64,000 nt of DNA from Pedobacter glucosidilyticus DSM 23534 (GTDB lineage Bacteria > Bacteroidota > Bacteroidia > Sphingobacteriales > Sphingobacteriaceae). This document shows positions 314 to 51,910 of this stretch, piece after piece. The first letter of the stretch is position 1. Every line of letters begins with the position of its first letter. A model generated the notes under the pieces. It searched no databases and was not told where the DNA came from. It was given only the letters and a program-made list of their open reading frames with translations. The position numbers were made by a program, and so were the translations under genes. The DNA is taken from the NCBI RefSeq assembly GCF_000425145.1, contig NZ_AULF01000006.1, positions 62,001 through 126,000 of the forward strand, read 5' to 3'.

Positions 314-2803
314 ATGAGCCCGGGAGAAAAAATCATAAGCAATTGGTACAAGCAAAAAAAATGGCAGCAATTTGTTTTCCAACAAGAAATGATGGATGCC
401 TATTTAAAAGGCTATTCGGGTTTGTTAAATGCACCAACTGGTAGTGGTAAAACTTTTGCCTTGTTTCTACCATTTCTTGCAGATTATATCAATCAATATC
501 CCAACGATTATCAAAGCAGAAAAAATAATGGTTTGTTAATGCTATGGATAACGCCATTAAGAGCCCTAACTAACGATATCCAAAAGGCCATGCAAACCGT
601 TGTTGATGATTTAGGAATCCCTTGGAAAATTGGCACCCGCACTGGCGATACCAGCAGTGCCGATAAGCAAGCCATTAAAAGGAAACCACCAGAAGTTTTA
701 TTAACTACACCAGAGAGTTTGCACCTTATGCTGGCTCAAAAAGAGTATCCCAAAGCTTTTGAAAAATTAAGAGTAGTGGTAACCGATGAATGGCATGAAC
801 TCTTAGGCACAAAACGCGGTGTACAAATGGAGCTAGGTTTAAGTAGGTTGAAGGGATTAAGGTCTGAAGACCGAAGACCGAAGACCGGGGATAATACCAG
901 TCTTCAAACTTTAAAAATTTGGGGTATAAGTGCTACCATCGGTAATCTTGAAGAAGCGGCACAAGTGCTTTTGGGTGTTAACTTCCCTAAAGAGCGGCAA
1001 AAAATGGTCAAAGCTGATATCGATAAAAATCTTGTTATCACTTCTATCATCCCACAAAATATAGAAAATTATAGTTGGAGCGGGCATATTGGTTTAAAGT
1101 TGCTACCAGAGGTAATGGATATTGTAGCACAAAGTAAAACAACGCTCATATTTACCAATACCAGAGCGCAATCAGAAATATGGTATCAAGCTATATTAGA
1201 TAAATATCCAGAATATGCTGGCATTATGGCTATGCACCACGGCTCTTTAGATAACGATTTACGCAACTGGGTAGAACAAGCTTTACATGCCGAGATTTTA
1301 AAAGTAGTAGTATGCACTTCAAGTTTAGATTTAGGGGTAGATTTTAGACCTGTAGATACCATTATACAAATAGGTAGCCCGAAAGGAGTAGCCCGTTTTA
1401 TGCAAAGGGCAGGCAGAAGTGGGCATCATCCTGGTGCAACTTCCAAGGCTTGGTTTGTACCTACACATTCTTTAGAATTACTGGAAGGTGCTGCCTTAAA
1501 ATACGCTATCAAACAAAAAACTTTCGAGAGTAGAGACCCCATCATTTTAGCTTTTGATGTACTTATTCAATACTTGGTTACCCTAGCTGTTTCTGATGGC
1601 TTTAAAGCCAATGAAATCTATAAAGAAATAAAAAGCACTTTCGCTTACGCGGATATTTTGCCTCAGGAATTTGATGATTTACTAGATTTTATCAGCAAAG
1701 GAGGTAAAACACTCTCCCAGTACGATGAGTATTTAAAAGTAGAGTATGAAAACGGTTTATATAAAGTAAACAACCGTAGGATAGCCATGCGACATCGCTT
1801 AAGTATGGGAACTATTACCAGCGAAATAAGCATGCGGGTAAAATTCCAAAGTGGCGGTAGTTTAGGCACTGTTGAAGAAGGCTTTATTGCTAAACTTAAA
1901 ATAGGTGATAATTTTTGGTTTGCAGGCAGAAACTTAGAATTGGTACGGGTAAAAGATATGACTGCTTATGTTAAAAAATCTACTAAAAAGAAGGGTGCTA
2001 TCGCTACTTGGGCTGGCGGCAGAATGCCATTATCATCACAACTATCAGCAGTTTTTAGAGAAAAGCTTGATGAAGTAGCGATAGGAGTAGAAGAAGACGA
2101 AGAAATTATCGCTTTACGTCCTTTATTTAGCCAACAAAACACTGTATCACATTTACCTCAAAAAACCGAATTCCTGATAGAAAAATTAGAAACCCGAGAT
2201 GGTCATCATTTATTCTTTTACCCTTTTGAAGGCCGACTGGTACATGAAGGAATGGCATCCTTAATAGGTTTTAGATTATCTAAATTTAAAAAAGCTAGTT
2301 TTTCTATAGCCATGAATGATTATGGTTTTGAGTTATTAACTGATGATGAAGTATTGCTAGAAAAAGCCTTAGAACAAAATCTATTTAGTGATAAAAACTT
2401 AATAGACGATATACAAAAAAGTTTAAATGCTAATGAAATGGCTCGTAGGAAATTTAGAGATATTGCACATATTTCGGGCCTAATTTTTACCGGTTTCCCG
2501 GGTAAACCCATGAAAAACAAACATTTGCAATCTTCAACATCCTTATTATTTGATGTTTTTAGCGAATATGAGAAAGATAACCTCTTAATTAGGCAGGCTT
2601 ATAACGAAGCTTTAGCTTTCCAATTAGAAGAGTTTAGACTAAGAGAAGCTCTACAGCGAATACAAAAACAGAAAATTATTATTAAAACTACAAACAAACC
2701 CAGTCCATTCGCTTTCCCTATTATGGTAGATAGGCTACGAGAAAAAATGAGTACCGAGTCTTTAGAAGAACGAGTTGCTAAAATGGTAGAAAGGTTAAAT
2801 TAA
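314..2803 (+). CDS. Ligase-associated DNA damage response DEXH-box helicase (Lhr-core type)
   Basis: Predicted ATP-dependent 3'-5' DNA translocase/helicase of superfamily 2, 829 residues, the usual length for the Lhr-core helicases that travel with an ATP-dependent ligase. Walker A is APTGSGKT (residues 40-47), the Walker B box is DEWH (158-161), and motif VI reads QRAGRSGH in the second RecA domain; a winged-helix and beta-barrel Lhr C-terminal region follows. Known clusters of this family also hold an SNM1-like exonuclease, a ligase and a metallophosphoesterase (PdeM/MPE). Here exonuclease and ligase lie 12.5 kb downstream and no PdeM is seen. Residues 185-191 (EDRRPKT) are encoded by three tandem 7-bp units, an apparent in-frame insertion. 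Its stop lies one base from the stop of the convergent gene. Confidence 0.9.
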   Translation: MSPGEKIISNWYKQKKWQQFVFQQEMMDAYLKGYSGLLNAPTGSGKTFALFLPFLADYINQYPNDYQSRKNNGLLMLWITPLRALTNDIQKAMQTVVDDLGIPWKIGTRTGDTSSADKQAIKRKPPEVLLTTPESLHLMLAQKEYPKAFEKLRVVVTDEWHELLGTKRGVQMELGLSRLKGLRSEDRRPKTGDNTSLQTLKIWGISATIGNLEEAAQVLLGVNFPKERQKMVKADIDKNLVITSIIPQNIENYSWSGHIGLKLLPEVMDIVAQSKTTLIFTNTRAQSEIWYQAILDKYPEYAGIMAMHHGSLDNDLRNWVEQALHAEILKVVVCTSSLDLGVDFRPVDTIIQIGSPKGVARFMQRAGRSGHHPGATSKAWFVPTHSLELLEGAALKYAIKQKTFESRDPIILAFDVLIQYLVTLAVSDGFKANEIYKEIKSTFAYADILPQEFDDLLDFISKGGKTLSQYDEYLKVEYENGLYKVNNRRIAMRHRLSMGTITSEISMRVKFQSGGSLGTVEEGFIAKLKIGDNFWFAGRNLELVRVKDMTAYVKKSTKKKGAIATWAGGRMPLSSQLSAVFREKLDEVAIGVEEDEEIIALRPLFSQQNTVSHLPQKTEFLIEKLETRDGHHLFFYPFEGRLVHEGMASLIGFRLSKFKKASFSIAMNDYGFELLTDDEVLLEKALEQNLFSDKNLIDDIQKSLNANEMARRKFRDIAHISGLIFTGFPGKPMKNKHLQSSTSLLFDVFSEYEKDNLLIRQAYNEALAFQLEEFRLREALQRIQKQKIIIKTTNKPSPFAFPIMVDRLREKMSTESLEERVAKMVERLN
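866..886 (+). repeat. Three tandem GAAGACC heptamers inside the helicase gene
   Basis: Three perfect copies of the 7-bp unit GAAGACC, preceded by GGTCT, which can pair with AGACC. Three heptamers make exactly 21 bp, so the helicase frame is kept and seven residues (EDRRPKT) are added between conserved helicase motifs. Confidence 0.85.
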
Positions 2804-26913: not shown

Positions 26914-27684
<771 letters not shown>

Positions 27685-28361
27685 GCCTGTAATGCAGCGG
27701 TTTCTGTTCTAAGCCTGCTGTTTCCTAAAGTTATGGGAAGAAATCCACTTTGCAAAGCATTATTTATTTCTATTTCAGAGAAATCGCCCTCGGGACCTAT
27801 TAAGATGGTATAAGATTGATGCTGTTTAAAAGAATCTTTTATTTCTTGTTTATCATGAGGTAGGCAATGTGCTATGTATTTAAAATCAGTATCGGCTTTT
27901 GATATAAATTTTTGGATGGTAATAGGCTCATTAATTCTTGGGCTATAAGCTTTTAAAGATTGCTTCATAGCCGCTATAACAACCTTCTCCAGCCTTTCTG
28001 TTTTAACTTCTTTTCTTTCAGAGCGCTCGCAAATAATAGGTGTAATTTCATCAATACCTATTTCTGTTGCTTTTTCTAAAAACCACTCTAACCTATCCAT
28101 ATTTTTAGTTGGCGCTATGGCAATATGTAGGAGATGATTTCTTTTCTGATATTCTAATTGTGCATCTAAAACCTGAAGAACGGTTCTTTTAGGATGATCA
28201 TCTAAAATTTCGGCTAAATAAAAACCACCTTTACCATCGACCAAATGAACAAGATCTTTTTTCTGTAAGCGCAAAACTCTTGAGCAATGTTTACTCTCTT
28301 CCTCACTTAAAGTATATTGAGTGCTTTCAATATCAGGAGTATAGAAAATATGCATCCTTAA

Positions 28362-39274: not shown

Positions 39275-39378
39275 GGGCGTATCCCTTAAAGGGTCGGGCT
39301 TTCCGCTGTATCTTTTTTGTCTTATCCTTCGACTCCGCTCAGGATGACAAAAAAGGATGCCGCTTCAATCCCTCACGC
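39275..39378. repeat. Nested interspersed repeat in the nuoF-nuoG gap
   Basis: Outer arms start GGGCGTATCCC...GGGTCGGGCTTTCCGCTG and end GGATGCCGCTTCAATCCCTCACGC, the form of a repeat I recall from many Bacteroidota intergenic regions. In its middle lies TTTTTTGTC (39313-39321) and its complement GACAAAAAA (39346-39354) around CCTTCGACTCCGCTCAGGAT, itself a common genome-wide repeat. No transposase is present. Confidence 0.75.
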
Positions 39379-39383
39379 AAACC

Positions 39384-39426: not shown

Positions 39427-40785
39427 TTAAGCTTCTTCCGCTATTTCTATAGGATCAGCATAACGGGCTAATCCATAATTTCTTTCTAAAGCTAATTTTG
39501 GCTCTTTAACATGCCATTCAAACTCATCTCTAAAATGACGAATAGCACTAGCCACCGGCCATGCCGCTGCATCACCTAACGGGCAAATGGTATTTCCTTC
39601 AATCTTTTTTGATACATCTACTAAAAGATCAATATCACTCATTTTACCATGACCATATTCTATACGATGTAGAACTTTTTCCATCCAACCTGTACCTTCA
39701 CGGCAAGGAGAACATTGTCCGCAAGACTCATGGTGATAGAAACGACTAAAGTTCCAAGTATTTCTTACAATACATTGGTCTTCATCTAAAACTACAAAAC
39801 CACCAGAACCCAACATGGTTCCTGTAGCAAAACCTCCTTCTGATAAAGACTCGTAAGACATTAAACGTTTATCGCCATTAGCTAAATTTAAGATTAAGTT
39901 AGCAGGCAAGATAGGTACTGATGACCCACCAGCAACAACTGCTTTTAATCGCTTACCGTTAGCTATACCTCCGCAATACTCATCAGAATAAATAAAATCT
40001 TCTACAGATAAGCCTAACTCAATTTCATAAACACCTGGTTTATTAATATTACCCGACGCAGAAATTAACTTAGTACCTGTTGATCTGCCAATACCAATTT
40101 TAGCGTATTCCTCACCACCTTCATTAACAATTGGCACTGTAGCCGCAATAGATTCAACGTTATTTACTACGGTTGGGCAGCCATACAAACCTGCAATTGC
40201 CGGAAAAGGAGGTTTAATTCTAGGGTTTCCTCTTTTACCTTCTAAAGATTCTAAAAGCGCAGTTTCTTCACCACAAATGTAAGCACCACCACCTGGTTGT
40301 ACATAAATCTCTAAATCGTATCCAGAACCTAGAATGTTTTTACCTAAATAACCAGCAGCTTTTGCTTCTGCAATTGCTTTTTCTAAAATTCTTATTTGTG
40401 GCATCATTTCGCCACGTACATAGATATAACTGGTATTTGCGCCTAGAGCGTAACTACCAACTATCATCCCCTCAATTAAAGCATGAGGGATATGAGTCAT
40501 CAAATACCTATCCTTAAAAGTTCCAGGTTCTGATTCATCAGCATTACAAACTAAATAACGAGGCACACCTTCTGGCTTAGCCAAAAAGCTCCACTTCATA
40601 CCGGTAGGGAAACCTGCTCCACCACGTCCACGTAATCCCGATTTCTTTACCTCTTCAACCACATCATCAGAAGACATGGTTTTTAAGGCTTTCTCTACCG
40701 CTCTGTATCCACCTTTTTCTTTATAAACCTGAAAAGTGTTGATACCAGGTACGTTAATATGCTCAAGTAATAGTTTACGACCCAT
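39427..40785 (-). CDS. nuoF: NADH:quinone oxidoreductase subunit F (NADH- and FMN-binding)
   Basis: NADH-oxidising subunit, 452 residues, that holds FMN and cluster N3. GLRGRGGAGFPTGMKWSF and CNADESEPGTFKDR form the FMN/NADH site; ESCGQCSPCREGTGWM and a later Cys in NTICPLGDAAAWP supply the 4Fe-4S cluster. It starts after a 148-base spacer filled by an inverted heptamer element. Confidence 0.97.
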   Translation of the reverse strand: MGRKLLLEHINVPGINTFQVYKEKGGYRAVEKALKTMSSDDVVEEVKKSGLRGRGGAGFPTGMKWSFLAKPEGVPRYLVCNADESEPGTFKDRYLMTHIPHALIEGMIVGSYALGANTSYIYVRGEMMPQIRILEKAIAEAKAAGYLGKNILGSGYDLEIYVQPGGGAYICGEETALLESLEGKRGNPRIKPPFPAIAGLYGCPTVVNNVESIAATVPIVNEGGEEYAKIGIGRSTGTKLISASGNINKPGVYEIELGLSVEDFIYSDEYCGGIANGKRLKAVVAGGSSVPILPANLILNLANGDKRLMSYESLSEGGFATGTMLGSGGFVVLDEDQCIVRNTWNFSRFYHHESCGQCSPCREGTGWMEKVLHRIEYGHGKMSDIDLLVDVSKKIEGNTICPLGDAAAWPVASAIRHFRDEFEWHVKEPKLALERNYGLARYADPIEIAEEA

Positions 40786-40796
40786 CTTTTATTAGC

Positions 40797-40933
40797 TATG
40801 AGATGTGAGTATTGAGTATTGAGAAATAAAATTCTCACAACTTAATCACACATCATTTTGAACCTTATATTATTTGTGATTATGAAACTTAAACGCCCGT
40901 GAAGGTCTCAAATCTCATATCTCAACACTCAAT
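40797..40933. repeat. Inverted pair of heptamer arrays filling the nuoE-nuoF gap
   Basis: Four tandem 7-bp units at 40797-40824 (TATGAGA, TGTGAGT, ATTGAGT, ATTGAGA) and four units in the opposite sense at 40906-40933 (TCTCAAA, TCTCATA, TCTCAAC, ACTCAAT). Both read as WTTGAGW on one strand or the other, so the RNA could fold back on itself over an 81-base loop. The second array abuts the nuoE stop codon. Confidence 0.88.
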
Positions 40934-41446
40934 CTATTTATCTTTTAAATCCTCTATTAACTGATCAACAGATTCTGGAGTTAAATTCTCATAGAATGTA
41001 TACTCTGGACCTATTTGTAAAACCGGAGCGTAACCGCAAGCGGCTAAACACTCTACACCGCGATAGCTAAATAAACCATCAGCTGTAACTTCTCCTTCTT
41101 TTACGCCAAGCTTTTCGCCTATATAATCCATTATTTTTTCTGCACCAACTAAACAACATGGTCCAGTACGACAAACCTCTAACACGTATTTACCTTGAGG
41201 TTTTAGGAAAAACATGGTGTAGAAAGTAGCTACCTCATAAACTTCTATAGGTTGTATGTTTAGGTATTCTGCCACTTTATCCATGGCGGCTGAACTTAAC
41301 CAACCATAAACCGCTTGTACTTCATGTAAAATTGGTAGCAAAGCAGATTTACTTCTTCCTTCTGGATAACGGCTAACAATTTCATCAAACTTTGAAATCA
41401 ATGCTGATGAAAATTCTACCGCTTGTACTTCTTCAACTCTAAGCAT
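40934..41446 (-). CDS. nuoE: NADH:quinone oxidoreductase subunit E
   Basis: Thioredoxin-like 2Fe-2S subunit, 170 residues. The four ligand cysteines are in CRTGPC and CLAAC of the C-terminal half, with the NuoE-type YEVATFYTMFFL segment before them. It overlaps the nuoD stop by eight bases. Confidence 0.97.
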   Translation of the reverse strand: MLRVEEVQAVEFSSALISKFDEIVSRYPEGRSKSALLPILHEVQAVYGWLSSAAMDKVAEYLNIQPIEVYEVATFYTMFFLKPQGKYVLEVCRTGPCCLVGAEKIMDYIGEKLGVKEGEVTADGLFSYRGVECLAACGYAPVLQIGPEYTFYENLTPESVDQLIEDLKDK

Positions 41447-51774: not shown

Positions 51775-51780
51775 CCACAT

Positions 51781-51846
51781 CAGGTGGAATGATTTGAGAC
51801 GCTTTTAAAGCCAGGATTGCAACCACGTAAAAAAGTGCTAAAGCCA
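51781..51846 (+). promoter_or_regulatory. SAM-II riboswitch aptamer upstream of metK
   Basis: The order and spacing of conserved parts match SAM-II (SAM_alpha): GTGG (51784-51787) pairing with CCAC (51823-51826) as P1, TGATTTG in the first loop (51790-51796), an insert that includes GCTTTTAAAGC, then ATTGCAA before P1', CACGTAAAAAAGT after it and GCTAAAGCC (51837-51845) as the 3' pseudoknot strand. TTGCA with TGC can form the P2 pairing. A hairpin AAAGC-CAAAATT-GCTTT (51840-51856) overlaps the 3' strand and could be the switching element. The ATG follows 65 bases later. Confidence 0.82.
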
Positions 51847-51910
51847 AAATTGCTTTTACTATCAGCAGTCTTTTATCCTTCCTATTTTTTGAATAATTAA
51901 CTTATTAAAT

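Follow-up and report, generated by a model that had tools for sequence, protein, structure and literature searches.

What kind of element separates nuoE from nuoF in Pedobacter glucosidilyticus, and does it act on the two genes that it lies between? In the 64,000-nt stretch of DNA analysed here (the window), both genes are on the minus strand, and the two ends of the 148-nt spacer carry short heptamer arrays facing one another (Table 1). The preliminary description of this DNA had reported inverted arrays of a WTTGAGW unit at this position. The arrays are real: read in the sense of the mRNA, the spacer contains TGAG four times and CTCA four times, each half matches itself at a lag of 7 nt in 16 of 21 positions at best, and among 20,000 dinucleotide shuffles 2 equalled the 5′ half, 7 the 3′ half and none both. 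The TGAG/CTCA core is present at every site, but the unit as then worded fits loosely, as the complete TTGAG occurs in three of the four units of one arm and CTCAA in two of the four of the other. GGG is absent from the units. Searched with the curated Rfam models at the gathering score, the window gave only Flavo-1 and SAM-II matches, neither of them inside the spacer.

Table 1. Positions in the window of the nuoE-nuoF spacer, its parts and other elements discussed in the text.
Feature	Position	Strand	Remarks
nuoE (NADH dehydrogenase subunit E), upstream gene	40934..41446	-	TAG stop directly adjoins the array; homologues compared
5′ arm, four heptamers with TGAG (mRNA sense)	40905..40933	-	lag-7 segment
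TGAG sites (mRNA sense)	40928-40931, 40921-40924, 40914-40917, 40907-40910	-	exact 7-nt spacing; series begins immediately past the nuoE stop
Inner sequence between the arms, 77 nt	40828..40904	-	similarity confined to the closest relatives, G012, G010 and G013
Fifth TGAG	40834-40837		possible pairing partner of the innermost CTCA
3′ arm, four heptamers with CTCA (mRNA sense)	40794..40827	-	lag-7 segment
CTCA sites (mRNA sense)	40820-40823, 40813-40816, 40806-40809, 40799-40802	-	exact 7-nt spacing; last site ends 13 nt ahead of the nuoF ATG
13 nt from last CTCA to nuoF start codon	40786..40798	-	
nuoF, downstream gene	39427..40785	-	
Flavo-1 RNA (RF01705)	39288-39383	-	55.5 bits; between nuoF and nuoG, the next spacer of the operon
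GAAGACC, 3.1 copies	866-887		inside a predicted gene
TACTTTA array, 12.3 copies	27558..27657	-	lag-7 segment; TACTTTA copies at 27566-27651; AAAGTAT/AAAGTAG units in mRNA sense
Predicted gene whose stop carries the TACTTTA array	27654-28355		
SAM-II riboswitch aptamer	51778-51851	+	53.2 bits

Palindromes made of tandem heptamers lie between cistrons across the genome, and this spacer is one of them. Absence of the array elsewhere in the genome had been named beforehand as what would speak against it; the word in fact recurs, with 76 matches in the source genome to GTATTGMGTATTGMG at up to two mismatches, compared with 14 for the reversed pattern. When one mismatch was allowed, at least five matches were found in 13 of 17 genus relatives, and other families of the class stayed mostly near the controls. 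For the TTGAG word, the pattern ATCTCAYATCTCAYATCT, allowing up to two mismatches, had matches in 11 of 12 genomes searched (reversed controls 0-3); two Pedobacter genomes gave 223 and 125, counting matches that overlap inside arrays, and a third gave 0.

The period is a property of more than this one word. A word-blind scan of 464 kb returned 28 arrays at a lag of 7 nt versus 1-9 at each other lag from 4 to 13, and a single genome may hold several array words, for example TACTTTA, AAAGAGT, AAGGCNN and GTTGTTN. The earlier suggestion of a shared 7-bp process gains from this specific excess and from the unrelated words, but one of its examples in the window is weak: TACTTTA is a genuine array, whereas GAAGACC has few copies and is intragenic (Table 1). 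The TACTTTA array forms a lone 5′-type arm at the stop of the predicted gene above it and overlaps the predicted start of the next ORF. Across the co-directional spacers of five genomes we counted 54 arrays at lag 7, 26 at lag 8 and 1-8 at lags 5, 6, 9, 10, 11 and 13. By spacer type, lag-7 arrays were present in 54/657 co-directional, 7/172 divergent and 6/145 convergent spacers, a co-directional excess of only about twofold per spacer in a sample partly chosen for pattern hits. Octamer arrays were observed in co-directional spacers at L218, L259, L269, L285, L286 and L115, some of them sharing the two-armed design, such as GTTATTGA facing TCAATAAC units. Because stretches were selected by hits (L111-L116 and L293 for known hits, and 40 stretches of two genomes by pattern hits), array frequencies given here are not an unbiased genome rate; gene starts were taken from a home-made ORF scorer rather than a standard gene caller.

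Placement relative to the flanking genes follows a simple rule. Drawn by eye from 14 aligned full copies out of the 40 hit-selected stretches of two Pedobacter genomes, the commonest form reads, in mRNA sense, stop codon, TAGATTTGAGAMATTAGATWTGAGATTTGAGA, short loop, (ATCTCAY)3-5, ATCTAAAAA, ATG. In 21 of 23 co-directional junctions of these hit-picked stretches the first TGAG could be placed at a median of 4 nt past the stop, and the last TCTCA lies at a median of 13 nt ahead of the ATG, within 25 nt in 22 of the 23. G-rich arms come first: among arrays of five genomes, those on the stop side had more G than C in 20 cases and more C than G in 8 (p 0.036), and those on the start side had more C than G in 23 and more G than C in 3 (p 9e-5). 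The same order holds in the 80 named loci, by 9:3 on the stop side and 14:3 on the start side. As a palindrome is identical on both strands, this order is a G-first rule and not an insertion orientation; we therefore dropped strand orientation as a reading and retained only lone arms and the G-first rule as informative.

The two arms of the TTGAG form are not copies of each other. The consensus stem of the alignment has one mismatch about every seven positions, at a variable heptamer base that is non-complementary between the arms and differs in composition (x = T28 A20 G13 in GATxTGAG; y = T45 C31 A8 in CTCAyATC; p 4e-6). The arms are thus neither mirror copies nor fully constrained by pairing, and simple mirror duplication was rejected for this form; homogenisation may proceed separately in each arm.

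Ten of 17 genus relatives have a 141-345-nt nuoE-nuoF spacer bounded by inverted heptamers, and one of the ten (G003) uses a different word, GCAAGAN facing TCTTGAT. In G008 and G002 nuoE and nuoF are 3-4 nt apart, and five of the 17 (G004, G006, G009, G015 and G016) lacked a readable junction. A member of another family, G041, has a spacer of about 60 nt in which TTGTTNG units face AACTAAC units. From 80 named Sphingobacteriaceae loci we obtained 76 readable junctions, having dropped L134, L136 and L154, where nuoF was not found, and L202, which had no nuoE motif. Spacers of Pelobium manganitolerans, Pedobacter segetis and P. psychrophilus were identical to those of G001, G011 and G017. The spacer is at most 20 nt long in 31 junctions and longer in 45; sorted by eye, the longer ones comprise 13 with TTGAG, 8 with AGTC, 6 with a CCCC..GGGG palindrome, 12 with small ORFs and 6 others. 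Inverted heptamers of two unrelated words therefore occupy 21 of the 76 junctions as judged by eye, or 16 under a strict rule of at least two exact cores in register in both arms, which keeps 9 of the 13 TTGAG and 7 of the 8 AGTC spacers. Since many relatives have a spacer of at most 5 nt and no array, nuo function does not depend on the array.

Several other occupants of this junction were recorded. The CCCC..GGGG palindrome, which is C-first, non-heptameric and 72-76 nt long, fills the spacer in six Pedobacter (L153, L158, L169, L183, L188 and L196). In Mucilaginibacter and kin, the space between nuoE and nuoF contains one small ORF or two, 41-66 codons in length, and these were confirmed at 12 of 12 loci (L150, L151, L155, L161, L162, L179, L184, L192, L198, L200, L206 and L212). 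Most of the encoded proteins end in a motif like HINYYK..KIY, and the two searched against Pfam gave no match above the cut-off; a similar small ORF lies between the heptamer arms of P. psychrophilus (L171). At L148 (3020-3340) the spacer combines a single 5′ arm with a 3′ arm region that is present three times in succession, and at L137 and L144 the array extends into the end of nuoE, providing its last codons and stop.

At this junction the word is replaced while the design is kept. In a tree of NuoE plus NuoF (made by a quick method, with SH-aLRT values as the only support and no bootstrap), 17 Pedobacter form one clade (SH-aLRT 100) in which all spacers are palindromic and 62-81 nt long, and in which the AGTC (8), CCCC (6) and TTGAG (3) classes are interleaved. 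P. soli (L178, AGTC) and P. zeae (L189, TTGAG) are sisters with a support of 95; they are 92% identical in nuoE and in nuoF, yet carry different spacer words. Mapped on the tree, spacer states require 26 changes, compared with a minimum of 6 and a shuffled mean of 46.4, so that vertical inheritance of each word is not simply the case. Recombination of junction segments between species could explain part of this patchwork; in the AGTC class the first nuoF codons differ together with the spacer.

The same turnover is seen at other junctions. For three further array junctions of G065 (the genome of L197), orthologues in four genomes had arrays in 9 of 12 cases, each with a shuffle fraction of 0.013 or less, and six of the nine use another word. 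In G070 none of the three junctions has an array; its spacers are 28-56 nt long with almost no fold. The three control junctions of this comparison, 14-41 nt long, are weak controls, as most are too short to hold a full array. Array status was also common to orthologous junctions when the source genome was compared with G003 or G013 (4 with arrays in both, 3 in one only, 18 in neither; p 0.005), a comparison to which plain inheritance adds because G013 is close, at about 92% DNA identity; with G003 alone the counts were 2, 1 and 14 (p 0.022). At a his-operon junction, whose downstream gene we take to be hisH-like, inspection by eye of four close relatives found both arms long in three and both short in the fourth, with some of the length gaps exactly 7 nt.

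Across 17 spacers, picked by us for their differing words, the spacer's own 3′ arm was the best partner of the 5′ arm in 16 by predicted energies, and the mean pairing energy of own arms was -24.8 kcal/mol as against -11.8 once arms from the same junction were exchanged between species; the sole exception was an AGTC 5′ arm, for which the G003 3′ arm is the stronger partner. Retention of the mirror design under exchange of the word suggests that the hairpin counts more than its letters.

The preliminary description had also raised the possibility of a long RNA stem within the nuo message. Such a stem is predicted, and arms are complementary also where species differ in their word. Folded in the sense of nuo, positions 40786-40940 gave -37.7 kcal/mol (z -3.95), with the stem joining the two arms; the opposite strand of the same segment had a fold z of -3.47. 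When stop and start codons were included, z was -2.6 over 40 shuffles, the arm stem opened where the stop codon lies and the ATG became part of another, small stem, placing the window spacer outside the class with flush ends. Among the nuoE-nuoF spacers of the TTGAG class, the nine short ones had z values from -1.5 to -5.2, and the seven of 12 small-ORF spacers that were folded ranged from -0.0 to -1.1. In AGTC-class folds the 24-25 nt at the 3′ end, including the ATG, were unpaired in 6 of 8. Weak folders comprised L204 and L176 (both z -1.5), L211 (z +0.5) and junction C of G064 (z -1.1).

Over the co-directional spacers of five genomes, z was below -2 in 23/39 spacers with arrays versus 82/231 others (p 0.007). 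A stem over the downstream initiation region is predicted for many members; strong stems with ends close to both codons were found in 11/39 array spacers versus 29/231 without arrays. Flush-ended hairpins as a general rule over all co-directional spacers were rejected, as the counts in the five genomes (35, 15, 10, 13 and 12) had no clear excess over shuffles (27.1, 10.2, 11.7, 9.2 and 7.4).

We tentatively propose, as the leading of several possible readings, that hairpins reaching from stop to start couple the translation of neighbouring genes. Messages of Bacteroidetes are described as functioning without Shine-Dalgarno sequences, and initiation in F. johnsoniae as tuned by structure around the start (PMC6847099, in the part of the text available). 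An RNA-unfolding model of coupling, and a coupled pair at +52 nt, appear in the accessible part of PMC12548453. Applied here, if nuoE were untranslated the stem would hide the nuoF initiation region, and a ribosome reaching the nuoE stop would melt the base of the stem and free the G-poor region before nuoF. NuoF synthesis would thereby track NuoE synthesis, as translational coupling by RNA unfolding. If only pairing mattered, the word would be replaceable provided that both arms changed, and periodic mismatches might, we speculate, keep the stem easy to open. Coupling is favoured by the placement at stop and start, the unusual folds, the sequence-free design, the pairing of own arms and the array status common to orthologues. 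It is disfavoured by the arrayless spacers of at most 5 nt, the small number of flush stems, the weak folds, the non-complementary variable base and a screen, cited in the same part of PMC12548453, in which structure just past the stop lowers coupling.

The main rival to coupling is that these are REP-like selfish or neutral palindromes, spread by an unknown route and surviving mainly at stop-to-start junctions as the least harmful place and made tolerable by their fold, with no job to do. The dispersal of the TTGAG word described above fits such elements, as do filled and empty junctions among close relatives (L143/L144 and L137/L146); by eye, the end of nuoE differs within these pairs, so that no MITE-like target duplication can be read. 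Arrays between convergent (6) and divergent (7) genes, next to 54 between co-directional ones and at about half the rate per spacer, also point that way. A copied element should nevertheless retain its sequence, and here the same junction has unrelated words with arms complementary every time, in arms that are not mirror copies of one another; on balance we regard a jobless palindrome as somewhat unlikely.

A role in mRNA processing or stability, in which the stem would block exonucleases or be cut and so set the NuoE:NuoF ratio, appears improbable to us. REP stems are thought to set expression ratios in this way in some operons, and the strong stem predicted within an operon message would suit it, but close placement at stop and start codons is unneeded for such a role. 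The reading as plain microsatellites, in which polymerase slippage favours 7 nt, template switching yields the inverted pairs and the RNA is not under selection, fits the 7-nt gaps at the his-operon junction, with arms both long or both short, and a 7-nt preference attributed to slippage in many bacteria in the parts of PMC4679880 and PMC4692102 available, but is likewise improbable because slippage alone accounts neither for unrelated words at one junction, nor for complementary arms that are not copies, nor for the G-arm-first rule.

Comparison with known systems places the present arrays among related but distinct elements. Rehm et al. (2015; PMC4692102) described G-rich heptamer repeats, GGGAATC and GGGGA(C/T)T, in Xanthomonas and Nostoc and, in the available portion of that paper, interpreted them through quadruplexes. 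Like the present arrays, these have 7-nt units, lie preferably between aligned ORFs, and place the G strand at most 50 bp past a stop (sense) or at most 50 bp before an ORF (antisense); Xanthomonas has 70 and 75 inverted pairs in two genomes, and 83% keep their gene context between the two (PMC4692102). The tandem 7-nt unit, the mainly co-directional placement and the order of G after the stop and C before the start are all found here. Unlike the present arrays, the Xanthomonas and Nostoc repeats use one G-run word that is quadruplex-capable, with few inverted pairs in Nostoc in the text available (PMC4692102), whereas ours comprise many words per genome without G-runs, replaced at the same junction. 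As the nuoE-nuoF units have no quadruplex-forming G-runs, a quadruplex reading of this site was rejected.

MacGregor (2015; PMC4679880) described TAACTGA direct repeats in Beggiatoaceae, some cyanobacteria and five Bacteroidetes. These too are 7-nt and intergenic, mostly end a few nt before a start and were suggested to act post-transcriptionally; in two Bacteroidetes other heptamers occur in the same intergenic regions, and relatives have shorter, repeat-free spacers (PMC4679880, in the part available). They differ in using one fixed word, with 169 sets of direct repeats and a single inverted one in the main genome, where, in that part of the text, related heptamers are rarely repeated, whereas the present arrays are inverted pairs of many words. 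The nuoE-nuoF units hold TGAG and CTCA and are inverted, not direct TAACTGA repeats; in the relative G041, an AACTGAC array precedes a start.

REP and BIME sequences are likewise dispersed intergenic palindromes, and Y1_Tnp genes occur in all five array-bearing genomes that were searched. Such genes were present in 5 of 6 genomes searched and absent from G070, itself without a match to either of two array patterns, although a single negative genome proves nothing. Among 25 Y1_Tnp loci of the five genomes (L346-L370), lag-7 arrays were seen in L351, L353, L356, L361 and L369, three of them A/T-rich; none lay within 200 nt of either end of the 12 Y1_Tnp genes inspected, L354 not among them, and a RAYT/REP origin was rejected on that ground. 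Several Y1_Tnp flanks carry other, non-heptameric palindromes, for example GCCCC..GGGGC (by eye). REP/RAYT palindromes each carry a GTAG or CGTC tag, according to the part of PMC3733652 available.

Earlier reports of heptamers were piecemeal, and explained them by one word (a quadruplex or a protein site) or by slippage. With unrelated words in the same mirror design at one junction of close relatives, an explanation tied to a word cannot be the whole story. Intergenic 7-nt repeats, their placement and inverted pairs were known before; word replacement at a kept design, as read from these sequences, appears to be new, and was not found in the open-licence literature searched, Bacteroidota included. 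We consider it unlikely, though worth stating, that a so far unrecognised process in Bacteroidota, common perhaps to Xanthomonas, cyanobacteria and Beggiatoaceae as well, lays down tandem heptamer and sometimes octamer palindromes of any word between stop and start and changes their two arms in concert, giving intercistronic couplers defined by period and pairing rather than sequence. Of known systems, coupling by RNA unfolding, as at rpmI-rplT, relies on a structure before the downstream start that the upstream ribosome can reach (PMC12548453, in the part available), a feature that the proposed hairpins would share. Those cases are individual structures, in contrast to the recurring, repeat-built, word-independent design described here. 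The order of stop, G-arm, loop, C-arm and start offers a testable rule for how operon neighbours might be linked without Shine-Dalgarno sequences.
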